Position numbers and translations under genes: made by a program. 37,403 nt of DNA from a bacterium (GTDB lineage: Bacteria; Bdellovibrionota_C; UBA2361; OMII01), in assembly GCA_017853605.1 (NCBI GenBank), contig JAFMJG010000010.1, forward strand, positions 1 to 37,403, written 5' to 3'. Below, one piece after another: positions 7,639-25,362 of this stretch. The stretch's first letter is position 1. The number at the start of each line of letters is the position of its first letter. The notes below the pieces were generated by a model. The model was given only the letters and a program-made list of their open reading frames with translations. It was not told where the DNA came from and did not search any database.

Positions 7639-10600
7639 TTAGAGACCGAGCCACTTCGAAACCGAGTGCGCGATGGTGTCGGTGATGGAGAGCATCTTGT
7701 GGCGCTTGAGGGCGTCGATGACGACGGGCATGATCTCCTCACTCGACACCCCTTCGAGAAGGGGGGCCGCCATGCTGAGGGTGTTCGCCAGCACGAGCCA
7801 ACGCTCCTCTATCTCAAGCCCCTGTGCGCTGACGAGGTCAAAAAAGGAGTTCACGGTGTCCCGCACGCCCTCGAGCGTGAGCGCTGCCGGGCTCGCTGCG
7901 AGACGCTCCTGGAAGGCACGGCAGGCCTGCTCGGCACGCCCTGCCGTGCCTGGCCCCGCCTTAAGCATCGTCGCCAGGAGCTGCGGAACGCGCGCTGGCT
8001 CAAGGAAGGCGGCCCTGATGGCCTGCAGGAGGAGCTTCTGGTCAGCCTTGGAGATCGGTTCAACCGCGCCCGCGTCGTACCATACGACCGTCGGCATGCC
8101 GCGTTGGAGCGCCGGACGGCCCGTTGCGGGATCGTAGAGCACCCCGAAGTTCCCAAGGTTGACGTCTGACTGGTACGCCTCCTCGACGAGCATCATGCGC
8201 AGCACTTCGAGCCCCACGGATCTCCTGATCGCGCCGCTGTCGAGCCCGTGCTTGGCTATCTCTGGGCTGTCGAGCTCGTAGCCCGGAAGGAGCGGCGTCA
8301 CGATAGCCCCCGGGCGGGTCAAGGCGTGTGTAACTTCGGGAACCCTAAAGAGCACTCCGCCACGCCCGGAAGAGAGAACTGAGCGCAGCAGGGCGGTGTT
8401 CGCCACCTCGCGATCGGTGTCGGTCTGGCCGCGCAGCTGCTGGCGGATGACATCTGCCGTGTTCGGCGGAAGGGCGAGCTGCCCGAAGGGGCGCGCCGTG
8501 TTGATGTGCCGGACGAGCGTCGCGACGAACGCGCAATCTGTCTCGATCTCGTCATGAATGAAGGGATGAATGAGCTTTACAACCGAGGCCGCGGCGGCAC
8601 CCGGGACACGGCACTCGAACGTTGCGGCCATCGATCCTTCCGCGATCTTGCGGCCGCTGCAGCTGTTGTCAAAGGCGTGCGAGCCGTAGATAGAGCGGAT
8701 CGTGTGGTAGAAGAGGGTCGAGTCGCACTCGCGGTTCTCGCTCGAGAGGGAGCGGAAAGCCCGCTTGTACTCGGGGGGCACGTTAAGCGTCGCAAGCTTC
8801 TGCCCAAACTTGACGAAGGCCGGCCCCATGGAGGCCAGGATGCTCGCCGTGAGGGTCGGCACGTCCGAAGAGGAGCCACGGGATGCCTCCCACACCTTGA
8901 GGAGCACCATCGGCAAGCGGCGCTCGGGGCACGCGGCGAAAGCCGTCGCAACGAAGGCCGAGAGCTCGGCAAGCTTCGTCTTGGGCAGACGGGAGGCGCC
9001 AAACGCGTTCTGCACGATCGCGGCGCCGGCGGCCTTAAAGAACGCATCCCTGGCCCGCTCGTCGCTGTAGATGCCCTTTTCGCCAGAGAGCGCCTCTGCA
9101 AAGAAGTCCGTGATCGTGCGCTCGTTGAGGAGGCCGCTCTGGAGCCCCTCTACTGTGGAGATGGCGATGCCGAAGCGCTTCTGGGCGCGGATGAGGCAGT
9201 CGGGGGTGGAAACCGGAGACTTGGAGGTAATGAGGCGTGAGGGATTGCAGTAGTCGCTAATGTTGTCCGCCTGGCTGCCATTGAACCACGCCTTGGCGGG
9301 CGAGGAGAAACGCTCTTCGCCCATGAAGTAGAGCAGCGCTTGCGCCTTGTCATACGGGGTGTAGAGCCTTACGAGCTGGAACACGGAGTCGAGCTTTACG
9401 CGGGACTCAAACTCCACGTCGCCCCGGACCTGCGATGCCGAAGGATCGGCGAGAAGGGCGCCGAGCGCCTCCTTGAGGGCGATTGAGTTCGCGCCGTCAA
9501 CGAAGGGCCGAAGGTGGCGGTCTCGCTCCCGTGAGGCGGCCGAGAAGGAGCCGAGGATGGCCCTCAGCTGCGGCTCTTGCGCCGCGAGGCGCTGCAGCTC
9601 CTCGGGCTGGGGCTTGAGCGCGCGAAGCAGCGTCCGCGCGATGTCGGGGTGGGCCATAAGGGCGCTTTCGGCAGCCCCGTGCAGCTGAAAGAGGCGGGCC
9701 TCAGCCGTCTGTGCGAGCCCCTCATTCATGAAGGCATCCCTGATGAGCGTTAGCACGTCGGTGCTCTCCTCGCGCATGATGCGCGGCTGGAGGTGCCGTA
9801 TGTCGTCGAGGTACGAGAGCTTTCCGAGCGAGAGAGCCTCACACAGCATCAGGTCGCGCGCCGCGCTCTTGAACGGCCGGAGCTTGAGGAGCTCCTGCGC
9901 CTTCTCCAGGCCCTCGGGAAGGCTCGCGTAGCTGGCAGCGTGAAGGTCGTTCCAGAGGAGCTGCGCGAGCACGTGCGGGAGGGAGAGCGCCTCAAGATGG
10001 AGGCACCGGCTGCTCTCGTACGACTCTCGGCCCTGCCCGACGAACTCTCTCCGCGCCGCATCTTCTCCTCGGCACTTGATCGCATCAGAGAGCATGTCCG
10101 AGAGGGGAAGGTATATTGCGTTGCGGCTCCACAGGAGGCTCCTGCCGCCGTCGAGGAGCTGGTCAGTGTCGTTAAGGTCGTGCTGCGACCACAGGGCTGG
10201 GAGCTGCTCCTGAAAGAATCGCCGCGTGACGGCCTCAGTGGGCGCTGGGTGCTCAAGGAGCGCCTCAGAGAGGCTCACAGCTTCCTGCAGCAGCTTCTCC
10301 ATCCGCTCATGGTCAACCGGCGGGGTGTCTGCCGGGTTGAGGCTAAAACGGGCCACAACCTTGCGGTTTTCCCGCTCAACGAGCTGCGTAAGCCGCTGCC
10401 GGATGAGCGCCTGGTCATCGGCGGACAGCGGCTGATCGCCGAAGGAAATGAGGATGAATGGCGCCTCGCCAGAAAAAGGGGAGGTCTCCATCACTGCAAC
10501 GGAGCCGCCAGGAATCCTGCGGATGAGGACGGGCGCGAGCAGGTCTGACGCCTTCTGCTCCAGGGCGCGAGCGAGCGCGTGGTGCTGCAGCTCGCGGAGG

Positions 10601-12264
10601 AGCGTCGACTCTCTCCGTGGGCCAGCGGGCGCCTGCGAGAGCCTGTCGATAGCTGCGCGCACTGGGGACGGAGAGTAGGAAGATGGGCTGGGGTTCTCGG
10701 CGAGAGCCGCCCCGTCGGTGAGCCCGAGGCGAAGGGAGGGGAGAGAGTCAACGAGCGAGACGAGCAGCTGGTGCTCGCTCTCGTCAGGGCTCGTCGCCAA
10801 AGCGTGTGCGAGGCTCGACAGCTCGCTCGTCAGGAAGATCGGGCTGCCGCCGAACGAGAGCTCCGTCTCCCGTGCCATGCCTACGAGCTCCGAGAAGATC
10901 GCGGCAGGGGAGGCGCTCTCTGCGAGGCGCAGTGCGATGTAGTGGTTGACGATCGCCCCAGTCGTGAAGAGGTAGAGGGGCTCCTGCATCAGCTCGTCAG
11001 TGGCTGGCAGCCTGTGCTCTGGAAGGTAGCGGCCCGGATCCATTCCGCGCAGCAGCGCAGCCGACTCTTCGAGTGAGCAGCCCGAGATCTCGTCGAGCCA
11101 CTCCTGCAGGAACTCCTCTTCGTGGAAGCCAAAGTACAGGGCGCTGGCGGCATGCCAGTCGGCGATCTGCTCTGAGGAGGGATTCCCGTCGAGAAGGTCG
11201 CGGATGGCGAGGGGCGGCGCCAGGTCTTCGTCTGGCTCAGAAAGCCCTGGAGCAAAGGCAGTAGCGTAGTGGCCGAGGATCTCTTCCCTCTGTCGGGGAA
11301 GGGCGCCTGGCGCCATGAGCTTGAGGTCCTTCTGCACTATGAGGGGCTCCAGATCCTCGGGAAACGAGCGCGGAAGCAGCAGGTCAGCAGGCTGTGGGGC
11401 CGGCAGCGCTGGCGCCGGGCTCGCTGCAGAGCGAGGCAGCTTGTTGGTGAGCACCTCGTTCGCGCGGCAGCGCCGCAGCGTCGAGGGGTGCGTGCTCAGC
11501 AGCGGCACATCCCTGAGGTCGCTGAGGATCCCGGCGCGCTCCTCATCCCTGTAATCGGAGCGCCCAATGACCAGGTCCTCATACTCCATGAGTTTGCGGA
11601 GGGCGTTGCCCATACCTTGTGGGGGCTCGCCGAATAGTGATGACAGGAGCGTTGCAACCCGATCGCAGTGATACTCAATCTCGTATGACTGCAGCCGGTC
11701 ACCGAAGGGGTTGTTAACCCAAGAGGCGATGCGCTGCTTCGTGGAGCCGGCAAAGATCAGGTGGGCGAGCTCGTGGTAGAGCACTGGGTGAATGAGCTCT
11801 GGCTTGTGGTCAAGGGCCTCAAGGAGCTGGGTGTTGACGTAGATACGCCGCGTGACCGGATTGATGAAAGCCTGAGGAAGGTAGGGCTCGAGGTCGAGGG
11901 AGGTGGCCTCGTCGAGATCGATACGGGGATAGCTTTCGAAGATCGTCAGCGAGATGGGGCTGCCTTTTAGCCCGAGCTCTTCGGCTGCACGATTCACGGC
12001 TGCCGAGAGCGCGACGTGGCATGGGTGGCTGGAGGGCAGGATCTTGTTGCCGCGCTCCATCTGGGCGTCGAAGACTTTGGCCTGGTGCTGATGAGCCGCA
12101 GCCCGAATGTCGATGCTCGCGCTCGATGCGGCCGGCCGGGCGTTGCGGGCGCCCCTAGGCTGCGTGGCGTGCGGCAGGGAGAGAGACCCAGTGGCGTGCT
12201 GGCGCCGCCCAGTGGCGTGGCAGACGGGTCGCGTGGGGCTTTGGCTTGACGGGAGGCGGCGCAT
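7639..12264 (-). CDS. M48-like metalloprotease fused to a UbiB/COQ8-like (ABC1) atypical-kinase domain
   Basis: A 1541-residue single frame. The ATG at 12264 is preferred over a TTG nine bases upstream; neither has a clear ribosome site. Near the N-terminus a metalloprotease motif HELAH (residues 164-168) is followed by EYHCD (197-201), matching the HExxH plus ExxxD pattern of M48 peptidases. Residues about 210-1130 are leucine-rich and probably helical, with no family I recognise. The C-terminal 400 residues carry ABC1/UbiB features: KFGQ near 1150, a glycine/alanine loop GSMAATFECRV near 1209, VVKLIHP near 1228, QSDVNLGNFGVLYDP near 1363 (compare COQ8 QTDPNWSNFFYDP) and YDAG in place of DFG near 1396. 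There is no obvious signal peptide or membrane anchor, so it is probably cytoplasmic. It is divergent from a sigma-like gene. I know of no such fusion. Confidence 0.85.
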   Translation of the reverse strand: MRRLPSSQSPTRPVCHATGRRQHATGSLSLPHATQPRGARNARPAASSASIDIRAAAHQHQAKVFDAQMERGNKILPSSHPCHVALSAAVNRAAEELGLKGSPISLTIFESYPRIDLDEATSLDLEPYLPQAFINPVTRRIYVNTQLLEALDHKPELIHPVLYHELAHLIFAGSTKQRIASWVNNPFGDRLQSYEIEYHCDRVATLLSSLFGEPPQGMGNALRKLMEYEDLVIGRSDYRDEERAGILSDLRDVPLLSTHPSTLRRCRANEVLTNKLPRSAASPAPALPAPQPADLLLPRSFPEDLEPLIVQKDLKLMAPGALPRQREEILGHYATAFAPGLSEPDEDLAPPLAIRDLLDGNPSSEQIADWHAASALYFGFHEEEFLQEWLDEISGCSLEESAALLRGMDPGRYLPEHRLPATDELMQEPLYLFTTGAIVNHYIALRLAESASPAAIFSELVGMARETELSFGGSPIFLTSELSSLAHALATSPDESEHQLLVSLVDSLPSLRLGLTDGAALAENPSPSSYSPSPVRAAIDRLSQAPAGPRRESTLLRELQHHALARALEQKASDLLAPVLIRRIPGGSVAVMETSPFSGEAPFILISFGDQPLSADDQALIRQRLTQLVERENRKVVARFSLNPADTPPVDHERMEKLLQEAVSLSEALLEHPAPTEAVTRRFFQEQLPALWSQHDLNDTDQLLDGGRSLLWSRNAIYLPLSDMLSDAIKCRGEDAARREFVGQGRESYESSRCLHLEALSLPHVLAQLLWNDLHAASYASLPEGLEKAQELLKLRPFKSAARDLMLCEALSLGKLSYLDDIRHLQPRIMREESTDVLTLIRDAFMNEGLAQTAEARLFQLHGAAESALMAHPDIARTLLRALKPQPEELQRLAAQEPQLRAILGSFSAASRERDRHLRPFVDGANSIALKEALGALLADPSASQVRGDVEFESRVKLDSVFQLVRLYTPYDKAQALLYFMGEERFSSPAKAWFNGSQADNISDYCNPSRLITSKSPVSTPDCLIRAQKRFGIAISTVEGLQSGLLNERTITDFFAEALSGEKGIYSDERARDAFFKAAGAAIVQNAFGASRLPKTKLAELSAFVATAFAACPERRLPMVLLKVWEASRGSSSDVPTLTASILASMGPAFVKFGQKLATLNVPPEYKRAFRSLSSENRECDSTLFYHTIRSIYGSHAFDNSCSGRKIAEGSMAATFECRVPGAAAASVVKLIHPFIHDEIETDCAFVATLVRHINTARPFGQLALPPNTADVIRQQLRGQTDTDREVANTALLRSVLSSGRGGVLFRVPEVTHALTRPGAIVTPLLPGYELDSPEIAKHGLDSGAIRRSVGLEVLRMMLVEEAYQSDVNLGNFGVLYDPATGRPALQRGMPTVVWYDAGAVEPISKADQKLLLQAIRAAFLEPARVPQLLATMLKAGPGTAGRAEQACRAFQERLAASPAALTLEGVRDTVNSFFDLVSAQGLEIEERWLVLANTLSMAAPLLEGVSSEEIMPVVIDALKRHKMLSITDTIAHSVSKWLGL

Positions 12265-12473
12265 AGAAGCCAAAAAGGTATTACGAATCAGGGCACTAAG
12301 CTCGCGCTGCGGCCAAAAAAATGGCGAGAGCGGATAACCATGCGTAGGGGCTTGGATTTTTTTTGCGGTCTGGGATGGCTATGGGGACCGCATTTCGCCT
12401 CGAAGAACCGGCCCACCACGTTGCATTTTCCGTGTTGGTTGGTAGCCTCCCTGACCCTGAATTTTAAGGACCT
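12265..12473. promoter_or_regulatory. Divergent promoter region between the protease-kinase and sigma-like genes
   Basis: A 209-bp gap more A/T-rich than its surroundings, with an A7 and a T8 run. It holds a perfect 7-bp inverted repeat TGCGGTC/GACCGCA (12364-12370 and 12386-12392) that could be an operator or RNA hairpin, and a second pair CTCGC/GCGAG (12301-12305 and 12324-12328). A TAATAC that could be a -10 for the leftward gene lies at about 12278-12283, which would give a nearly leaderless transcript. AAGGA at 12466-12470 precedes the rightward ATG. Confidence 0.4.
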
Positions 12474-15744: not shown

Positions 15745-16755
15745 CTAGGCCGCACGGACAAGCCGCTCAACTACCGGCGCCATCAGGGCCCGCAGCGCAT
15801 CCCTGGCGTCGCCAGCGCCTGCGTGGAAGCGCAGCCGGTGCAGCAGGACGAACGGGGCGATGTAGTTGAGGTCATCCTCAGTCGCGTAATCACGGCCGTT
15901 AATGAGCGCCCAGGCGCGCACCGCGCTCTGGAGCATGAGGGCAGCCCGGGTGGAGGCGCCGAACTGAATCATGGGGTTGTTGCGGGTGGCCTGGACGATG
16001 GCAACTATCGCCTCGCGCAGCGACGGCTGCACGTGCACGGCCTCGCAGGCGATGCGGGCGTCGAGGATGTCGCTCCTCGTGCATGCCGGCTCGATTGAGA
16101 GGGAGCCCTCCCGGATCGCCGAGTGGGACTCGAGGATGGAGCCTTCGGTTTGGGCGTCCACGTAGCCCATCGGGACCTTGAACAGGAAGCGGTCAAGCTG
16201 CACCTGGGGCAGCGGGTAGGTGCCAGCGATGTCGAGGGGGTTCTGCGTGCCGAGCACAAAGAAGAGCTGGTCGAGGGGGCGCGTTACGTTGTCGAGCGTC
16301 ACCTGCTTCTCGGCCATGCACTCTAGGAATGCGGCCTGCACCTTGGGGCCGGTGCGGTTAATCTCGTCGGCGAGGACGATGTGCGCAAATACCGGCCCGT
16401 GCATGAAGTGAAACTGGCCGGTCTTCGGGTCAAACACGTTGACGCCGAGGACATCGCCCGGGAGCATGTCAGGGGTAAACTGGATGCGCCGAAACGGGAG
16501 GACAGGATCGCGCGCAGCTGATGGGTGGCGCGACTGCCCGGCAGGATCCTCGCTAATGAGCCGCCCGAGGGTCTTTGAGAGGGTGGTCTTGCCGGAGCCT
16601 GGGTAGTCCTCAAGAAGCACGTGGCCATCGGCGACGAGCGCAGCCACGACGAGCCTGATAGTGTCGCTGCGGCCCTTGATGACCCGCTCAAGCGAGGAGC
16701 AGATCCCCGAAACTGTCCGGTGGGCCGCGCCGTGCTGTTCAGCTGTTACCGCCAT
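15745..16755 (-). CDS. MoxR-family AAA+ ATPase
   Basis: About 336 residues. MoxR ATPases act as chaperone-like remodelers that usually work with DUF58 or VWA proteins. The start is fixed by GGAGGAG about eight bases before ATG 16755. Walker A is EDYPGSGKTT (residues 49-58), Walker B is HIVLADEINR (125-134), and FVLGTQNP carries the sensor 1 asparagine. MoxR-typical GDVLGVNVFDP, GPVFAHIVLADEINR and QVQLDRFLFKV are all present. A 15-20-residue polar insert (PAGQSRHPSAARDPV, about 71-85) sits between the first helix and the IQFTPDMLPGD strand where MoxR is usually shorter. It overlaps the upstream TPR gene by 17 bp and is the last gene of the DUF58-transglutaminase-TPR-MoxR operon. Confidence 0.93.
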   Translation of the reverse strand: MAVTAEQHGAAHRTVSGICSSLERVIKGRSDTIRLVVAALVADGHVLLEDYPGSGKTTLSKTLGRLISEDPAGQSRHPSAARDPVLPFRRIQFTPDMLPGDVLGVNVFDPKTGQFHFMHGPVFAHIVLADEINRTGPKVQAAFLECMAEKQVTLDNVTRPLDQLFFVLGTQNPLDIAGTYPLPQVQLDRFLFKVPMGYVDAQTEGSILESHSAIREGSLSIEPACTRSDILDARIACEAVHVQPSLREAIVAIVQATRNNPMIQFGASTRAALMLQSAVRAWALINGRDYATEDDLNYIAPFVLLHRLRFHAGAGDARDALRALMAPVVERLVRAA

Positions 16756-18727
16756 TTTGAATCTCCTCCCTAAACAGGGCATCCGATAGTTTATTCACAA
16801 CTGCTGCCGGATCAACATCCCCCACAACGCGATTTTTGCTTGTGTTGCCAGGGCACGAGAACGAGGCCCTAATCTCTGCCCCGCCGGCCGGGGACGGCGC
16901 CCCCGTTATTGAGCACAGCACGCCGCTCTCCCCGCCGTCCACGAAGGGGCCATCCTCAATGAGCCCCGACACCCGAGGATCGAGAGAAGCGCGGTCAATC
17001 CGCACAGGCAGCCGAAGGGCGCGGTTCCGAAGCTCGGGAGCCGCGGTGTAGAACACCCGGTACGCGAGGTCGCGGTAGCGCTCCGAGGATTCGCGCAGCC
17101 CCTCCATGCGGAGGCACATCACCTGGATCTTCAGCAGCTCATCAAGCCCCGGCCGGGCAGCAAGCATCACCTCATCGAGAATGCGGCCCGACTCGCTGCG
17201 AGAGAAGACTCCGCGATTCGCCTGCGCTGCGTATGCCCGGTAAAAAAGCTGCGCCGCCGACCGCTTGTCGATAGCGAGCTGCTGCGACATCCTTGAGCCG
17301 AAGGCGGCCCCTGAAAGCCCGGCAAGCACGTCTCCCAGGGTCGGGTACTCAAGGAGGCTGTCGGTGTTCCTGATAGTGAGATCCTCGATCCGCTTGAGCT
17401 CGCCGATCAGCATCTGCCGCGCGCGGCGCATGAGCCACCATGCCCGCAGGGAGTTTGCGGCGATGCGCTTCTCGCTCTCGGCCCAGGCAGCCCACGAGGG
17501 CGGCACAGTGGCGCGCAAGATGTTCGCTTCGGCGCGCAGCGCCTGGGCGAGAGAGATGGTGCTGGCAACGAGGAGGTCGTTCTGGTTGGTGCCTATTTTG
17601 CCGAACCACTGGGTGCCGTCGAGCGCTGTCTCAAAACGCCGAATGGCGCGGGCGACGTTGCCGGTGTGGAGGTCCACGCGGCCCCGGGCGAGGCTCTCGA
17701 GTGCCACGTGCTCCTCGTTGTTTCTGAGGGGGTACTGTGCGATGCACCGGTCGAAGGCATCCATTGCGGAGGCTGCGCCCTCAAGCTTCAGCTGGTCCAC
17801 GTACAGCAGCGCGAGGTTGAGGCTGGGGAGGATGTGCTCGCAGCCGTCCCTAAACGTCGTGGCGCGCAGGAAGCTCGACTCGGCCTTTTCGTCGTCGAAC
17901 ATCTCCTTGTACACCTCGCCCGAGTTGTTGAGGGGAGTGCCGGGCTGGCCATCGATGCCGAGGCTCATCTCGTGGGCGATCGCCTTGCGGAAGACCTCGA
18001 GGGCCTCTTGGGGCTGGTCGTTCATCGACAGCAGAATGCCGAGCATGTTGAGCGTGCGCGCGCCGTCATCGCCAGCGAGCACGCCGAGGCGGGCGACCTT
18101 TATCGCCTCCTGAATGTCCCCGAGCTTCATGAGGACCCACGCGCGCGAGCCTGGGTACCAGCTCGCCCGCGAGCCGATGAGGCTTCGGTACCCGAGGGAC
18201 TCAAACTCGTCGAGCGTCCCGAGGGCGCCCTCATAGTTGTCAAGGTTTAGCCGGATCTGGCTGATGTAGTAGAGGAGATCGCTGTGCTCGCTGCGCAGCT
18301 CCCTCGATGTGTATGGAGGCTCGCCGTACTTCTCTGTAAAGAGCTGCTCTGCCCGCTTGATGTACTTGAGCGCCAGGCGGTAGTGCCCCACGTAGTTGAG
18401 GTAGTACGCGGCGAGAAGCGAGTAGGCGCGGAAGTTTTCAGGATCCTTCTTGAGCGCCTTGATGAGCTTCGTCCGGGCATCAAGGGGCCGGTCGAGCTGC
18501 AGCAGCAGCACGCCGTCCCGCAGAAGCTCTTCAGCCGACTTTGAGTCATCGTCCTTCGAGGAGACGATCTCCTCTGTCCCAAGGATGTCAAATGGGTCGA
18601 GGGGATCAACCACTGCCTCTCCTGGCTCCTCAAGCGCAGCGTCCTGAGCTCGCGCACCACGGGCGGGATGGAGCGCGATTGCAAGTGCCAGCGGAGCGGC
18701 CACGAGAAAGCGGCGGAGAGCGATCAT
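16739..18727 (-). CDS. Secreted or periplasmic TPR-repeat protein of the MoxR/DUF58 operon
   Basis: About 662 residues. The ATG at 18727 is chosen because AGGAGGAGG lies six bases before it and because its A overlaps the last base of the upstream stop (TGATG). An N-terminal signal peptide (FLVAAPLALAIALHPARGARA) predicts export. TPR-like helical pairs follow: LLQLDRPLDARTKLIKALKKDPENFRAYSLL, then NYEGALGTLDEF, DIQEAIKVARLGV and QPQEALEVFRKAI. The second half is helical with no family I recognise. In related MoxR-type operons (Bat/Tgp) TPR proteins serve as assembly partners; here the same role is inferred from the operon alone. Confidence 0.85.
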   Translation of the reverse strand: MIALRRFLVAAPLALAIALHPARGARAQDAALEEPGEAVVDPLDPFDILGTEEIVSSKDDDSKSAEELLRDGVLLLQLDRPLDARTKLIKALKKDPENFRAYSLLAAYYLNYVGHYRLALKYIKRAEQLFTEKYGEPPYTSRELRSEHSDLLYYISQIRLNLDNYEGALGTLDEFESLGYRSLIGSRASWYPGSRAWVLMKLGDIQEAIKVARLGVLAGDDGARTLNMLGILLSMNDQPQEALEVFRKAIAHEMSLGIDGQPGTPLNNSGEVYKEMFDDEKAESSFLRATTFRDGCEHILPSLNLALLYVDQLKLEGAASAMDAFDRCIAQYPLRNNEEHVALESLARGRVDLHTGNVARAIRRFETALDGTQWFGKIGTNQNDLLVASTISLAQALRAEANILRATVPPSWAAWAESEKRIAANSLRAWWLMRRARQMLIGELKRIEDLTIRNTDSLLEYPTLGDVLAGLSGAAFGSRMSQQLAIDKRSAAQLFYRAYAAQANRGVFSRSESGRILDEVMLAARPGLDELLKIQVMCLRMEGLRESSERYRDLAYRVFYTAAPELRNRALRLPVRIDRASLDPRVSGLIEDGPFVDGGESGVLCSITGAPSPAGGAEIRASFSCPGNTSKNRVVGDVDPAAVVNKLSDALFREEIQNGGNS

Positions 18728-20898
18728 CACCATCCTCCTCCTGAAGCTGCCTTAACCACCGACGCTGGGCTGAGCGCCGCAAGGGCCCGCCTCCAGAGGG
18801 GCAGCCTTGCGAGCGGGGCGCCCAGCGCAGCCATCGCATCCTGCACCTGGCGCGAGGCGAGGCGCGAGGAGGGCGCAAAAGCCTCCTCTACCGCAAGCCG
18901 GGCGAGGGGAGTGAGGTCAGCAAGGGCAACGCGCGCAGCGAAATCGAGGCGCGTTTCGCCAAGCTCGCGGGAGACCCCAGCATCGCACAGGGCAGATGCT
19001 GCAGAGATGTAGGCGAGCCGGAGCTTCAGGCGGGGCGTGGGGGCCACGCGCCAGCCGAAGCGCAAGAAGAGCTTCGCTGCAACAAAGGCTGCCAGCAGCA
19101 GGTACGCAACGGGGATTGCGCGGCGCGGGTTTGGCAGCCAGTCGCCGCCCTCGTCGCTGAAGCCCTTCTCGTCTTTGACGAGCTCCTGAGGAAGGAGCTC
19201 CTCATCGGGCTGAAGGATGCCCATGAGCTCCTCAAGCAGCTTTGGGTCGACCTGCGTCTCCGCGTGGTTCTCAACCTGCTCGGGCTGCACGTCGAACGGC
19301 ACCCAGCCGACGCCTGTGACGAACACCTCTGGCCAGGCGTGACGGTCGCTCATGCGGAGCAGGATGTGGCCATCCTTCGACTGGCTGAGGTCGGTGAAGT
19401 ATCCCGTCCCGATGCGTGCCGGGATGCCGAGCGAACGCATCAGGTACACCATGGCGTGCGCAAAGTGAACGCAGTAGCCGCGGTGATCGCCGAAGAGGAA
19501 CGGCGCGACCTGGTCGTCGCCCGCCTTTACCTCGTGGCGGGGAGTGAGGGTGTATATGGAGGTCTTTGAAAGGTAGCGTGCGAGCGCCTCGGCCTGCTCA
19601 ACGGGCTGGGTGAGGCCGCTGGTTACCTTGAGGGCCAGGTCCTTGTAGCGCGGATCGGGATGGGGGGTGAGGTAGTGCTGCCGGACCTCCTCTGTCCACC
19701 GTGGGTCGCCCACCCCGTGCTGGGCGAGGGACTCCAGCTCAAATGCGGGGGCGATTGAGTACGCGCGATACGCGCCCTTAAAGCGGGTGGGCTTCGGGTT
19801 CTTGAGCTGCACGATTGAGACCGGATAGTCCACCGCAAAGGGATTGTCGTGGTTGGCGATCAGGTAGACCGACTGCACGAGGGGCTTCCTTCCCCCAAGC
19901 TCTGGATCCTCCTTGCCGGTGTAGGGCTCGTTGGGTCGGCTGACAGCGATATCGGTGTCGAAGGCCCTGCCTGCAAACACCAGCTCGTGGCCGTTGAAGG
20001 AAGAGAGCGCAGTCTCGCGCAGGTAGAGCACGGGGCTAAACGGGTTGTTGGTGTAGTCACCCTCAAGGCGCACCAGCGCGGTTGGCTGGCTTGAGGCGCC
20101 AAGCGCCGACTGGAAGGTGAGGGGGCTTACGCCCTCTTTTGCCCCTGAGCCCACGCCGTTCGATACTCGCCCGAGGAGCAGCGCGCTGAAGTGCGCGTAC
20201 AGGCCGCGCTCAATCCCGATGACGAGCGTCACCACGCCGGCGAGCATCAGCCCCGTCAGGACGAGCTGCCTTCGGCCGGGCGCCTGCCGGACCGAGATTT
20301 CGTCAGCTCGCGGCCGGGCGGCGAGCGAGGCGAGGTAGAGGTAGGCGAGCGTGGCTGCCACCAGGATGGTGCCAACGATGATGAGCATCGCAAGCGGATC
20401 GACCTCAAGCCGCCACGCCAGCGAGTTCATCACCTTCGGCCGGTCAAAGTTGAGGTCACGGTGCCCAGCAAAGAGAAGGACCGAGATCGCGAGCATCACG
20501 ATCGCCTCTGCCGTCACCGCAGCCCGGACACGCCAGAACATCCAGGTTGTCATCGCCGCCGCGAACAGGGCAACGCCACAGGTCCCGAGGTGCATCCCGA
20601 GATCTTCAAGCAGCAGCGATGAGAGGCCGAAGATCGACAGGAGCCAGTTCAGCAGGATGGCGCCCATCGGAGGGCCAAGGGAGAGCGCCAGGCATGAGGC
20701 GACGAAAGCGAGCGACGTGAGGCGCGAGCGCGACACGAGGGAGGCGCCAACAATTCCGGCCATGCCGAAGAGGCAGATGACCGGAACGGGGGTTCCTAGA
20801 GGCACTAGCGAGTTGACGAAGAGCGCAGCGATGGCCGCCCCTAGGCAGCGGAAAGCGACCACGCCCCAAAAGAGCCCTAGCCCAGTGCGAGCGCTCAT
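18727..20898 (-). CDS. TgpA-like membrane transglutaminase-fold protein
   Basis: About 723 residues. GGGAGGTG precedes ATG 20898, which overlaps the stop of the DUF58 gene (ATGA). The N-terminal 200 residues hold several membrane segments, followed by a periplasmic region with the transglutaminase/cysteine-protease core: the nucleophile in RGYCVHFAHAMVYLMRSLG (Cys near 475), His in DRHAWPEVFV (near 518) and Asp in WVPFDVQPE (near 536), the complete C-H-D triad. One more membrane segment (VAYLLLAAFVAAKLFLRF) precedes a DUF4129-like cytoplasmic tail. Pseudomonas TgpA is the nearest well-known analogue and is essential there. Substrates are unknown. Encoded between DUF58 and the TPR gene. Confidence 0.9.
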   Translation of the reverse strand: MSARTGLGLFWGVVAFRCLGAAIAALFVNSLVPLGTPVPVICLFGMAGIVGASLVSRSRLTSLAFVASCLALSLGPPMGAILLNWLLSIFGLSSLLLEDLGMHLGTCGVALFAAAMTTWMFWRVRAAVTAEAIVMLAISVLLFAGHRDLNFDRPKVMNSLAWRLEVDPLAMLIIVGTILVAATLAYLYLASLAARPRADEISVRQAPGRRQLVLTGLMLAGVVTLVIGIERGLYAHFSALLLGRVSNGVGSGAKEGVSPLTFQSALGASSQPTALVRLEGDYTNNPFSPVLYLRETALSSFNGHELVFAGRAFDTDIAVSRPNEPYTGKEDPELGGRKPLVQSVYLIANHDNPFAVDYPVSIVQLKNPKPTRFKGAYRAYSIAPAFELESLAQHGVGDPRWTEEVRQHYLTPHPDPRYKDLALKVTSGLTQPVEQAEALARYLSKTSIYTLTPRHEVKAGDDQVAPFLFGDHRGYCVHFAHAMVYLMRSLGIPARIGTGYFTDLSQSKDGHILLRMSDRHAWPEVFVTGVGWVPFDVQPEQVENHAETQVDPKLLEELMGILQPDEELLPQELVKDEKGFSDEGGDWLPNPRRAIPVAYLLLAAFVAAKLFLRFGWRVAPTPRLKLRLAYISAASALCDAGVSRELGETRLDFAARVALADLTPLARLAVEEAFAPSSRLASRQVQDAMAALGAPLARLPLWRRALAALSPASVVKAASGGGW

Positions 20899-22229
20899 AC
20901 GAACACCTCCCACTGCTTTGAGAGGCACTGGGCGAGGAAGCTTCGGTACTGGGAGGCCGACACGCCCTGCGGCTCAGCTGGGTCAGGCTCAAAAACCAGG
21001 GGAGCTATGCGGCCGATCGCTCCCCGTGGGGCTGCGCTGAGCAGTCGCTCCGGCGCGGTGACGCAAAAGGCCGGCTCGATCCCTTGCAGCGTAAGCCAGC
21101 CGGCCAGCTTCAGGATTCGCGCCGACTCGGCAGGCTCGGCAACGCGGCTCCCCGCGCAAAAAATAAGGAGCTTTTTCACCTGCACCCGAAGCGCCTGGTT
21201 GGCGCAGAAGTCGAGAAGCGAGACGGTGTCCTCCTGAAGCGCTTCGCCAGCTTGGCGCCGGGCATCCCAGACGGCGTCTATGAGGAGCTCCCTCATGAGC
21301 GCAGGAGATGTGGCGGGAGCGCGCCCGCCCAGCCCCTCGCACCCCGCAACGACATCGAGCTTAAGCTCGCTGACGGCTTGGGCATACGCCAGGGCAGATG
21401 AGCACACTACGTCATCCTCCGGCCGCGCCAGCACCATCATGACGACGTAGCCCTCGGGCGTCATCGACGCTTCTGGATGGCGCGAAAGGAGCTCACCGCT
21501 CTTTGCGTACGCCTTCCACACGATCTTCTTGATGCCGTCAGATGGATGGTAGGCCTTGATGTCGAACGGATCACCCTGACGATTGAAGACGTCGACAGCG
21601 AGATCTCCGGGCCGCTGGGTGGAGCTGATTAGCGGCAGCCGGGTCTCTCCGGCCTCAGGGGGCCCGACCTCTATGGAAGAGGCCAGGGGCTGCAGCCACG
21701 ATACGCATGCGAGTCCCGCCGCATCCTTCACCTCGCAGCGAAGCGCTGTTAGGGGCCATGCGCCGCGGTGCGGCAGCGTAAGGTCGAGCGTGAAGCTTCG
21801 ATCGCCCGAGCTGAAGCCCGTCACGCGCAGCGCTGCCTTTGGGAAGTCGGCTGCCGAGCTTTCGAGGCGCAGGTCGAGCGAAAGTAGCGGGAGCAGCCGC
21901 AGCCGAGGAACGGTGATTGCAACTCGAACTGCCTCGCCGGATATCCCCTCGTCGCTGGGCGGCACCACGGCGACCGCCAGGTGGCGCCGCAGGAAGAGCC
22001 CCTGAGCGGCAACTGTGACCGCAAGGGTGAGGATAGTGCCAAGAAGCCCGTAGGCGAGAGCGGCAGAGACGATGTCGGTGTGCCGTGCGACCGGGCTAAC
22101 GAGGAGGTAGAGGCCCAACGCCACCAGCAGCAGGCAGCGCACTGAAAGGGGCCCGAGAGAGCGTACCTGTGCAACCCTGTGGAAAGCCTCGGTGAGGTAT
22201 ATCCAGAGGGGTTGGAGGACACGCTTCAT
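20895..22229 (-). CDS. DUF58-domain membrane protein
   Basis: A 444-residue protein and the first gene of the operon. Two membrane segments lie near the N-terminus (VRCLLLVALGLYLLVSPVA and ALAYGLLGTILTLAVTVAAQG). The DUF58 signature occurs at about residues 227-247 as YHPSDGIKKIVWKAYAKSGEL, matching the usual 'YxxGDxxRxIxWKxxAxxxEL'. A VWA-like C-terminal domain follows. DUF58 proteins pair with MoxR ATPases, and the MoxR gene is present three genes downstream. No clear ribosome site precedes the ATG. Its stop overlaps the next start by ATGA. Probably transcribed from the A/T-rich region 22230-22260. Confidence 0.92.
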   Translation of the reverse strand: MKRVLQPLWIYLTEAFHRVAQVRSLGPLSVRCLLLVALGLYLLVSPVARHTDIVSAALAYGLLGTILTLAVTVAAQGLFLRRHLAVAVVPPSDEGISGEAVRVAITVPRLRLLPLLSLDLRLESSAADFPKAALRVTGFSSGDRSFTLDLTLPHRGAWPLTALRCEVKDAAGLACVSWLQPLASSIEVGPPEAGETRLPLISSTQRPGDLAVDVFNRQGDPFDIKAYHPSDGIKKIVWKAYAKSGELLSRHPEASMTPEGYVVMMVLARPEDDVVCSSALAYAQAVSELKLDVVAGCEGLGGRAPATSPALMRELLIDAVWDARRQAGEALQEDTVSLLDFCANQALRVQVKKLLIFCAGSRVAEPAESARILKLAGWLTLQGIEPAFCVTAPERLLSAAPRGAIGRIAPLVFEPDPAEPQGVSASQYRSFLAQCLSKQWEVFV

Positions 22230-22492
22230 TATGTATGTATATCAGCTATTTGAAATACTTTCCCACAGATCGATGCGAGCTGTGGAAAGATGTGGAAAAA
22301 CGACTCGCGCTGCACTGTATGGCGACCCGCACCAGGAGGCTGGCTCGCACTGCCACCACCCGTTGGCCCCAACATAACGCACGGGTCCGGCTTCGGGAAT
22401 AGAGAGCTGAGAGTTTAGCTCGCTAGTATCCGCCAAGGCAGGTGCTGTTGGCAGTGGACGCCCTCTCTCTCTCAGGGGAAGGTAAGGGGGGT
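22230..22492. promoter_or_regulatory. Divergent intergenic region with three DnaA-box-like nonamers
   Basis: An A/T-rich patch (22229-22260) is followed by TTTCCCACA (22259-22267, reverse orientation), TGTGGAAAG (22281-22289) and TGTGGAAAA (22291-22299). The last differs from the E. coli-type box TGTGGATAA at one base, the other two at two bases; the last two are spaced exactly 10 bp. CGCTAGTATC (22421-22430), also found before pgi, contains a plausible -10 (TAGTAT) for the rightward gene. Confidence 0.4.
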
Positions 22493-24544
22493 ATGTCGAC
22501 AAGCAAAGAGGAGAGTGCGCCGGCAAGCGGTGGAACGGGGAGGCGCCGCCTCCCTGACGCGGAGTACCTCGCGCTCGGCCTAGGGGATGCGGATCGGGGG
22601 GGCGAGATCTTCGTCGCCCCTCAGCTACAGGCGCCAGCAGTTGGCACAAGGCGACAGACCCCCTTCGGCGTTCTTGCGCCGTCGCTGCTCGAGGCTTTTG
22701 CGCTTGATAGCGCGCTTCTCGATGCGGCCATTCCGCTCTTGGCTCCCCGCTGTCGCCGGTGTGGCACGTTGGCGCAGGCGCCGGGAGACATCCACTCCTT
22801 TGATCTCCCGCCGGACGGGTTCCTGGCGGCTGTGCTGGCAGACGAGCGAGCCGAGATCTCGCTCCGCGAGCGGTGTGAGCTGCTCGGTGCAGAGCGCGTG
22901 CTCGTTGCGGGAAAGATCCTTCGCCTGGAGGATGCGCACTGTGAGGATGGCGAGCCGGTGGTATGCCTCGTTTCCGCCAGCCACCCCGACGAGCTTCGGG
23001 CCGGTGTCTCGCTCTGGATGGGGCGGGGCAGCGTGCATGTTCGCGTGCTGCACCTCGCGGGGCGCGCTGATACTGCGACGGAGCTAGGGCGGTTTCGGCC
23101 AGCATGGGAGTGCTTGCAGTGCGGGGAATCCTATCCGGTTGCCACAAAGCTCGCCCTCTCCACGCTGGAGGCCTGCACGCGGTGCAAGGGGGGCGGCTGG
23201 TTGGAAGTCGAGGGGGGGCGCCTCAACGCGTGCCCAGACTGCGATGGATTTGGGTCGTGCTCCCCGCTTCGTGAGTATGAATGGCACGGCACCCAGCTTC
23301 GGGGCATGCCCGCGATCTCGTTTGGCCAGCTCGCTGGGCGGCTTGACCGCGGGAGCTGGCTTGCGCGCGCATGCCGCACCGTTTGCGAGCATGGGTTTAG
23401 CGCCTATCCCGTAGGCGCCCCGGTCCGCGCGCTGGCTGCGGGTGAGCGGCTGCGGGCGGCACTTGCCGTGGTTGCGCTCTCGCAGGTGACAGGAGCCTCG
23501 TTTGTCGCCGACGGGGCTGCCATCTTCAGCGACACCGAAGAGGCCGCTTCGGTGGCCCTGTGCCTTCCTGAGCCTTTTTTGCCGCCACCGCGGCGCCCCG
23601 GGGGATCATCCCACAGCATCATCGTGCGGGACATCGAGAGGGGGCCGATCTCGATCGCTGAGCTCAGTATCCCGCTCGGCTCACTTGCCGCAGTTCAGGG
23701 CGACAGCGGCACCGGAAAGCGGCTGCTCCTGCACGAGATCGCCGGCGCATTCTCGAAGAGAAAGAAGCTCGCGCACAGGTGCGCTTTCCCCGGAATATCG
23801 GCGTGCCACGTGGCAGACCTGTCGCTTCCCCCGCCCGAGCTCATTGGGAACCTTATTGGGCTTCTCGGCCCCATCTCTGGAGATCTCGCCCGAAGCCGGC
23901 TGGCGCGTGAGCGTGGCCTCTCTGCCGAGCAGCTCTCGCCCGCTACAACCGTCCACCGGTGCCCATCATGTCTCGATGATGCTTGCGGCGATCCCTGTTT
24001 GGAGTGCGGCGGATCGGGGGTCAGCGCTTCTGTGGCGACCTTGGCGTTTGGCAGCATGTCGTACGGCGAGATCCTGCGGGCGCCTTTGCGGGAGATCGCG
24101 CCGTTGCTGTGGAGCTCAGATGCCGTTGCTGGAGTGATTAACGGGCTGCCGGAAGAGCTCTCGGCCCGCATTTCCCTCACTACCCGCACGGCTGACCTCT
24201 CGGCGCCGCAGCGCCGAGCGCTTGCAGTGCTCGCGGCCGTTTCGCGGGTGCTCGCGCTTCGAAAGGGGGCGCGGCCAGCTCCCCTTAACTCGCAGCTCCT
24301 GCTCCTGTGCTCCCCGATGAGCCTGGGGCGCGCGCACCAGGAGGCTGCCTGGGGGGCCATATGCGAGGCGAATGATCGAGGCGCTACGGTGATTTGCACA
24401 AACGTGCCACAAGCTCTCGAAACGAGCTTCGCCTCTGTGGTACGGTTACGCCCTTCAGGGGAGGCAGGGCCGGAGCGGATGAGCCACGTTATGTACGACG
24501 TGCGGTACTCAAGGGCAGCCCGGGCACACACAACGGCGGCATGA
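22493..24544 (+). CDS. Degenerate UvrA-like protein, probable pseudo-ATPase
   Basis: About 683 residues against roughly 940 for UvrA. Start 22493 follows a G-rich run; a GTG at 22442 is an alternative. Regions match UvrA in order: RRQTPFGVLAPSLLEAFALD (55-72) for the IRQKT segment, RCRRCGT zinc knuckle (87-92), CLQCGES and CTRCKGGGW with CPDCDGFG (207-254) for the first insert, SIIVRDIE then SIPLGSLAAVQGDSGTGKRLLL (375-413) for the second nucleotide-binding half, CPSCLDDACGDPCLECGGSG (490-509), and LSAPQRRALAVLAAVSR (569-585) for LSGGEAQRxKLA. The first Walker A is absent, the signature is LSAPQ, and LLLLCSPMS (602-610) replaces the acidic LDEPT Walker B, so hydrolysis is doubtful. Its stop overlaps the pssA start. 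Confidence 0.8.
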   Translation: MSTSKEESAPASGGTGRRRLPDAEYLALGLGDADRGGEIFVAPQLQAPAVGTRRQTPFGVLAPSLLEAFALDSALLDAAIPLLAPRCRRCGTLAQAPGDIHSFDLPPDGFLAAVLADERAEISLRERCELLGAERVLVAGKILRLEDAHCEDGEPVVCLVSASHPDELRAGVSLWMGRGSVHVRVLHLAGRADTATELGRFRPAWECLQCGESYPVATKLALSTLEACTRCKGGGWLEVEGGRLNACPDCDGFGSCSPLREYEWHGTQLRGMPAISFGQLAGRLDRGSWLARACRTVCEHGFSAYPVGAPVRALAAGERLRAALAVVALSQVTGASFVADGAAIFSDTEEAASVALCLPEPFLPPPRRPGGSSHSIIVRDIERGPISIAELSIPLGSLAAVQGDSGTGKRLLLHEIAGAFSKRKKLAHRCAFPGISACHVADLSLPPPELIGNLIGLLGPISGDLARSRLARERGLSAEQLSPATTVHRCPSCLDDACGDPCLECGGSGVSASVATLAFGSMSYGEILRAPLREIAPLLWSSDAVAGVINGLPEELSARISLTTRTADLSAPQRRALAVLAAVSRVLALRKGARPAPLNSQLLLLCSPMSLGRAHQEAAWGAICEANDRGATVICTNVPQALETSFASVVRLRPSGEAGPERMSHVMYDVRYSRAARAHTTAA

Positions 24545-25362
24545 TGAAACTGGGGCTTTCGGACAAGAGGATCTCAAGGGAGGAGCTCAAGGAGCTCCTG
24601 TACCGCAGGCGGTATGCGATTCCTAATGCCGTCACGGTTGGCAACATGTTCTGCGGCTTCTTGGCGATCATGTACTCGTCCACGGGGCGCTTTGAGAAGG
24701 CCGTCATCGCGATCCTGATTGCGATCCTGCTCGATGGCCTCGACGGGCGAGTCGCCCGCCGGCTCAATGCAACCTCGAAGTTTGGCATCGAGTTCGACTC
24801 GCTGTCCGATCTCGTCTCATTCGGCGTGGCTCCGGCGGTCATGACCTACCACTGGGCGTTCCACCGGCTTGCTGACGAGTTTGGCGTTGCAATAACGTTC
24901 TTTTACGCGCTCTGCGCGGCGAGCAGGCTTGCGCGCTTTAATATCTCGGCCGACAACCTCAAGAGCTTCACCGGGCTGCCAACCCCGGGGGCTGCCGTGT
25001 TCGTGGTTGCGGTGATCAATGCAGTGCCGGCTGAGCAGAACTCCTACGTGATGGTCGGGGTGGGGGCTCTCGTGATGCTCGCAATCGGCTACTTGATGGT
25101 CTCCACAATAGAGTTCTTTAGCATCAAGCAGTTTAAGCTCTCTGGCGTGAAGGTGCGTTGGCAGCTGGCGCTCGGGCTCCTCATCGCCCTGACCTGGTAC
25201 GATTCCAGGCTGGGCCTGCTTGCGCTTGCGAGCTGCTACGCCGGGAGCGGGCCCTTCTTGCGGGTTCGCGCCGGCCTTCCCCCTTGGCTCGGGGGAACGC
25301 GGTCCCATGCGGCGATGGGGCGCCCAAAGGTTGTGCCGTTTTCGTCTGACAGCGCCTCCTGA
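24541..25362 (+). CDS. pssA: CDP-diacylglycerol--serine O-phosphatidyltransferase (phosphatidylserine synthase)
   Basis: About 273 residues. It joins serine to CDP-diacylglycerol to make phosphatidylserine, the precursor of phosphatidylethanolamine. The CDP-alcohol phosphotransferase motif is complete: D65-G66, D68-G69, A72-R73, G82, D86 and D90. Multiple membrane segments follow, and AASRLARFNI and TGLPTPGAAVFV are typical of type II PssA. The start ATGATG at 24541 overlaps the stop of the UvrA-like gene by four bases, so the two are translationally coupled. It converges on the PmtA-like methyltransferase gene. Confidence 0.94.
   Translation: MMKLGLSDKRISREELKELLYRRRYAIPNAVTVGNMFCGFLAIMYSSTGRFEKAVIAILIAILLDGLDGRVARRLNATSKFGIEFDSLSDLVSFGVAPAVMTYHWAFHRLADEFGVAITFFYALCAASRLARFNISADNLKSFTGLPTPGAAVFVVAVINAVPAEQNSYVMVGVGALVMLAIGYLMVSTIEFFSIKQFKLSGVKVRWQLALGLLIALTWYDSRLGLLALASCYAGSGPFLRVRAGLPPWLGGTRSHAAMGRPKVVPFSSDSAS

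Follow-up and report, generated by a model that had tools for sequence, protein, structure and literature searches.

We found that a lineage of lake bacteria keeps a UvrA-derived protein with a degenerate ATPase, here called paralogue A. In the window (the whole stretch of DNA analyzed, 37,403 nucleotides), its gene occupies 22493..24544 on the plus strand and encodes 683 aa, as supported by ORF calls, a conserved open frame, hhalign, AlphaFold, and Foldseek. An in-frame GTG lies upstream of this start, at 22442. Computation establishes homology, fold, motif loss, conserved zinc residues, graded intermediates, and shared descent with a second paralogue, B, of the same genome. We see about an even chance that paralogue A is a UvrA-family pseudo-ATPase acting as a nonhydrolyzing adaptor or regulator, perhaps in partnership with B or with nucleotide excision repair proteins.

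Paralogue A Has a UvrA-Type Fold

As a single protein, paralogue A showed faint similarity to the UvrA model TIGR00630 (22.4 bits, E = 3e-5), far from the 729.8 bits that the curated cut-off sets for a functional UvrA, yet the similarity is very strong by family profile and by fold. In hhalign, the profile of the A family matched the C-halves of UvrA (99.8%, E = 2e-30) as well as the N-halves together with single-copy UvrA (99.8%, E = 2e-28), and the latter alignment begins at zinc module 1 and runs almost to the end of the protein. An AlphaFold model of paralogue A (pLDDT 81, pTM 0.72) was compared with the PDB using Foldseek. The first 38 matches were all of the UvrA type (UvrA, UvrA2, Ecm16), with an E-value of 3.6e-23 for the best match and of 6.6e-8 for the first non-UvrA match. 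Based on Foldseek and hhalign, paralogue A has the fold and the domain order of UvrA. An earlier note, made from the sequence alone, had recognized UvrA landmarks in this gene and had named profile comparison and structure prediction as checks. Both bear out the proposed descent, the profile comparison strongly for the family and weakly for the single protein, and the UvrA core fold, whose absence would have spoken against the claim, was recovered. We conclude that paralogue A is UvrA-derived.

The Proximal ATP Site and Both Catalytic Glutamates Are Lost

Motifs were tabulated from 61 aligned sequences, including nine paralogue A copies of the genus. In UvrA, the proximal ATP site is composed of ATP-binding domain I and signature II, and the distal site of ATP-binding domain II and signature I (PMC10192343). 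None of the nine genus copies retains the proximal site (Walker A I, signature II) or the catalytic Glu of Walker B II. The copy in the window lacks both catalytic glutamates. Its remnant of ATP-binding domain I (22493..22744; plus strand, as for all motifs and modules below) is without Walker A I in the motif alignment, and four of 67 columns are invariant (residues 17-85). The Walker B I remnant FVADG (23501..23515) holds the invariant Asp340, with the catalytic Glu replaced. In the alignment, LSAPQ (residues 569-573; 24197..24211) takes the place of ABC signature II and LLLCSPMS (residues 603-610; 24299..24322) that of Walker B II (LDEPT). The missing first Walker A and these two substitutions had all been claimed beforehand and are confirmed by alignment, and the loss of the proximal site and of both catalytic glutamates supports the accompanying claim of a degenerate ATPase.

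Two remnants at the distal site can be added to those already listed. The ABC signature I remnant LAAGERLR (23432..23455; LAAGER, residues 314-319) aligns with LSxGE in relatives. The pattern xSxGE is found in eight of the nine genus copies, the window copy reading LAAGE. The Walker A II remnant GDSGTGKR (residues 403-410; 23699..23722) has Arg in place of Ser/Thr, where relatives mostly read GxxGxGKS, and a strict Walker A II is present in six of the nine. In one member of the genus (G003), the P-loop is missing altogether. Judging by these motifs, relatives keep Walker A II and signature I, the elements for nucleotide binding at the distal site. The window copy ranks among the weaker genus copies there, and its nucleotide binding at this site is probably weak. 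Two intact ATP sites, with Walker A and B motifs and signatures I and II, are not present in paralogue A.

Zinc Modules Persist without DNA-Contact Elements

Twelve zinc-type cysteines are invariant across the nine genus copies and make up three modules with predicted zinc binding. Module 1 (C87, C90 ... C207, C210; 22745..23125) surrounds a UvrB-binding-type domain at about residues 91-206, which aligns with UvrA in hhalign and shows conservation at the level of the segment, so that UvrB binding is at most predicted. Between the Cys pairs of module 2 (C228, C231, C247, C250; 23171..23254), an hhalign gap marks the absence of the UvrA insertion domain. Module 3 (C490, C493, C502, C505; 23954..24013) has a spacer of 8 residues versus about 19 in UvrA, and the UvrA beta-hairpin is therefore missing. 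The insertion domain and the hairpin of zinc module 3 contact DNA in UvrA (PMC7835731, PMC10192343). Paralogue A has lost the DNA-reading parts, and three zinc modules and a UvrB-binding-type domain persist.

Paralogue A resembles UvrA (TIGR00630/NF001503) in core fold, domain order, the three zinc modules, the UvrB-binding-type domain, and the layout with two nucleotide-binding domains. It is unlike UvrA in lacking Walker A I, the catalytic Glu, signature II, the insertion domain, and the zinc-3 hairpin, and in scoring far under the cut-off. With UvrA2, or class II UvrA (Deinococcus UvrA2, Ecm16, DrrC), it shares the core fold and the status of a paralogue outside the main repair role. However, UvrA2 and Ecm16 are without the UvrB-binding domain and zinc module 1 and keep the insertion domain and the ATPase (PMC10192343). 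Paralogue A is the reverse, with the UvrB-binding-type domain and zinc module 1 kept and the insertion domain and ATPase lost, and does not fall into class II.

The Genome Encodes an Intact UvrA and a Second Degenerate Paralogue

The genome's own UvrA is an intact tandem protein of 1829 aa (G000:C82, locus L087), and UvrB and UvrC are present with scores above their cut-offs. The C-half of the tandem UvrA is without an insertion domain, a layout common across the class. The search for a true uvrA elsewhere in the genome, suggested by the earlier note, was thereby successful, which removes its reservation that the genome might hold no other uvrA and that correction of a sequencing error might restore the active residues. 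Two proteins of related genomes (G027:C229 and G028:C598) were considered as intact ancestors of paralogue A and rejected, as each genome has the complementary tandem-UvrA half at another contig end. We also observed that G022 encodes an 840-aa UvrA2-like protein besides its tandem UvrA (G022:C187, L127).

Paralogue B (G000:C62:3-1916, L114; 638 aa, cut by the contig start) is a second degenerate UvrA paralogue. It has no P-loop in the motif table, and the fold of its family is that of UvrA. Its neighbors in relatives are a phosphohexomutase gene on one side and pcnB on the other. Paralogues A and B and intact free-standing UvrA-like genes form one clade (support 100/99) of free-standing copies without the insertion domain, and neither half of the tandem UvrA belongs to it. 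In the rooted tree, the C-half is closer to this clade than the N-half is and likewise is without the insertion domain, but its ATPase motifs are intact, and the A/B clade is separate and not nested inside the C-halves. Within the genus, the A and B subtrees match in topology, and their branches are several times longer than the UvrA branches. For distant A and B members, whose long branches meet, the tree gives no order, and orthology of the class-level "A-type" genes with the window gene is not implied.

In family f17 (G041, 892 aa; G042, 901 aa) and in f7 (G017, 830 aa), an intact free-standing UvrA-like gene adjoins the phosphohexomutase gene. A further intact copy is present in G033 of f17 (861 aa). 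These B-type genes (G041B, G042B, G033B, G017B) reach UvrA scores of 514 to 570 bits where scored. Like paralogue A, they belong to the clade, are without the insertion domain, and have the UvrB-binding-type region, but their ATPase motifs are intact at lengths of 830 to 901 aa. Intermediate scores were obtained for G030 (296 bits) and G012B (148 bits), and families f15 and f17 have A-type genes that are degenerate as well. The loci L165, L168, L120, and L177 of related families hold intact UvrA-like genes without the insertion domain and are part of a natural series that leads from intact to degenerate copies. In f17 and f15, degenerate UvrA-like genes (L180, L181) lie near an apparent antisense 16S rRNA stretch, which we recognized by eye only. 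A and B are both present in f1, f2, f6, f7, f9, and f11 and both seemingly absent at their loci in f3, f4, f5, and f13; the function is therefore dispensable.

Paralogue A Is Conserved within the Genus

Of the 11 other genomes in the genus, 10 carry a homologue of paralogue A with an open frame; eight of these homologues are full length and two are broken by contig ends. The full-length homologues have 33 to 48% identity, and the same degenerate form is carried by independent metagenome-assembled genomes (MAGs) from several waters. An alignment of the nine complete copies, that of the window among them, has 647 ungapped columns, of which 79 are invariant. Of the 24 Cys columns, 15 show no variation in the nine full-length copies, compared to about 3 expected (hypergeometric P = 3e-9). 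Divergence among the genus copies is lowest at second codon positions, higher at first, and highest at third (0.42/0.32/0.59 at positions 1/2/3 between G000 and G007), in a sample that consists of MAGs with contig breaks and in which synonymous sites are highly diverged. Judged from this codon pattern, paralogue A is a real gene under purifying selection on the protein.

A scan of a contig collection yielded no matches with the single protein as a query, and nine loci, all from members of the same genus, with the alignment of the A family. A plasmid search was negative, and comparison with a defence-system library returned P-loop noise and nothing more.

Adjacency to pssA Extends to Several Families but Not to the Class

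The stop codon of paralogue A (TGA, 24542-24544) overlaps by 4 nt with pssA (24541..25362, plus strand; CDP-alcohol phosphatidyltransferase, Pfam PF01066, E = 3.6e-21), whose ATG starts at 24541, in line with the stop/start overlap stated in the earlier note. The other border of the locus is a divergent DUF58-like gene (20895..22229, minus strand), a neighbor that is conserved throughout the genus and also in families f2, f6, f7, f9, and f11. The minus-strand cluster at 15745-22229 of the window comprises MoxR ATPase, TPR, transglutaminase, and DUF58-like genes, of which the DUF58 and transglutaminase genes adjoin paralogue A in related genomes. Further away, at 7642-12273 on the minus strand, a 1544-aa frame has an ABC1 atypical-kinase domain only close to its end (Pfam, E = 5.5e-17).

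The 4-nt overlap is found in five of the nine full-length genus copies. In the remaining ones, the spacing lies between -1 and about +67 nt, and it reaches about +150 nt in a copy at a contig end. Where the contig continues, pssA follows directly downstream throughout the genus. An A-type gene lies between the DUF58 gene and pssA in families f1, f2, f6, f7, and f9. In f11, it lies between DUF58 and PGI, with pssA on another contig. In f4, f5, and f13, pssA occurs without A, and a response-regulator-like ORF stands between DUF58 and pssA. The class-level A-type genes are located at other places and do not adjoin a detected pssA. Adjacency to pssA holds for the genus and for a number of families, but not at the class level.

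Discussion

What we infer for paralogue A concerns its partners, its nucleotide binding, and its effect on repair. Its ancestor is a free-standing UvrA-like copy without the insertion domain, intact forms of which survive in related families. Paralogue A retains the UvrA core fold, the three zinc modules, and the UvrB-binding-type domain. Relatives could bind ATP at the distal site, with Walker A II and signature I, and such binding could lock a conformation. The UvrB-binding-type domain and the zinc surfaces may hold protein partners, for example B, UvrB, Mfd, or the tandem UvrA. The G003 copy without a P-loop may indicate that nucleotide binding is irrelevant to the function.

The strongest alternative is that A and B form a heterodimeric, noncanonical UvrA-like complex dedicated to some DNA-related task that is not part of standard excision repair, which we regard as possible but less likely than not. 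UvrA proteins act as dimers (PMC7835731), and the two paralogues belong to one clade, are coinherited with matching topology in the genus, and occur together or are seemingly missing together in the families listed above. However, G022 (f12) has a B fragment and no A was found there, and paralogue A is without the DNA-contact elements. Somewhat less likely still is the more specific proposal that A and B are a dedicated UvrA-derived pseudo-ATPase heterodimer with a nonrepair role, a repurposing of the UvrA scaffold undescribed in the literature searched. A tie to phosphatidylserine synthesis, by translational coupling to pssA and control of pssA or of membrane lipid balance, would fit the overlap here and in four other genus copies, and it would fit pssA being the next gene after A in the genus as well as in families f2, f6, f7, and f9. 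We consider it improbable, as the spacing varies up to about 150 nt, the A-type gene of f11 stays by DUF58 and PGI with pssA elsewhere, pssA does without such a neighbor in f4, f5, and f13, class-level A-type genes are not beside a detected pssA, and the sister B adjoins a phosphohexomutase gene. The partner gene is thus inconsistent across families, and the functional pairing with lipid synthesis claimed earlier is not supported as stated; the link to PssA is weak.

It also seems unlikely, to a similar degree, that paralogue A is a functionless, decaying relic whose frame is kept mainly because its translation feeds pssA. Fast evolution, progressive motif loss, and the absence of both genes in several families are consistent with decay, but the frames are open over their full length in nine species with highly diverged third and most conserved second positions, the invariant cysteines and a confident fold from the protein's own alignment argue against it, and selection for pssA translation would not keep zinc ligands. 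The very low single-sequence score of 22 bits is the one point in favor of a chance resemblance or of a true uvrA altered by errors in sequencing or assembly. The probability of this is negligible, and both a frameshifted uvrA and chance are ruled out by conservation in independent MAGs, by profile and fold, and by the separate tandem UvrA.

We therefore return to the UvrA-family pseudo-ATPase as the preferred reading. UvrA is among the best conserved bacterial repair ATPases, and to our knowledge, the characterized paralogues UvrA2 and Ecm16 are ATPases. In the open-access subset of the literature that we searched, no paper on UvrA as a pseudoenzyme or degenerate form was found. That the disabled A is kept together with its disabled sister B suggests that the present role of A differs from ordinary DNA repair. 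The lineage keeps two ATPase-dead UvrA derivatives in addition to all of the UvrABC genes, and living intermediates connect the intact with the fully degenerate forms, which provides a natural series for the role of the UvrA scaffold without ATP hydrolysis and for the path from repair enzyme to pseudoenzyme.
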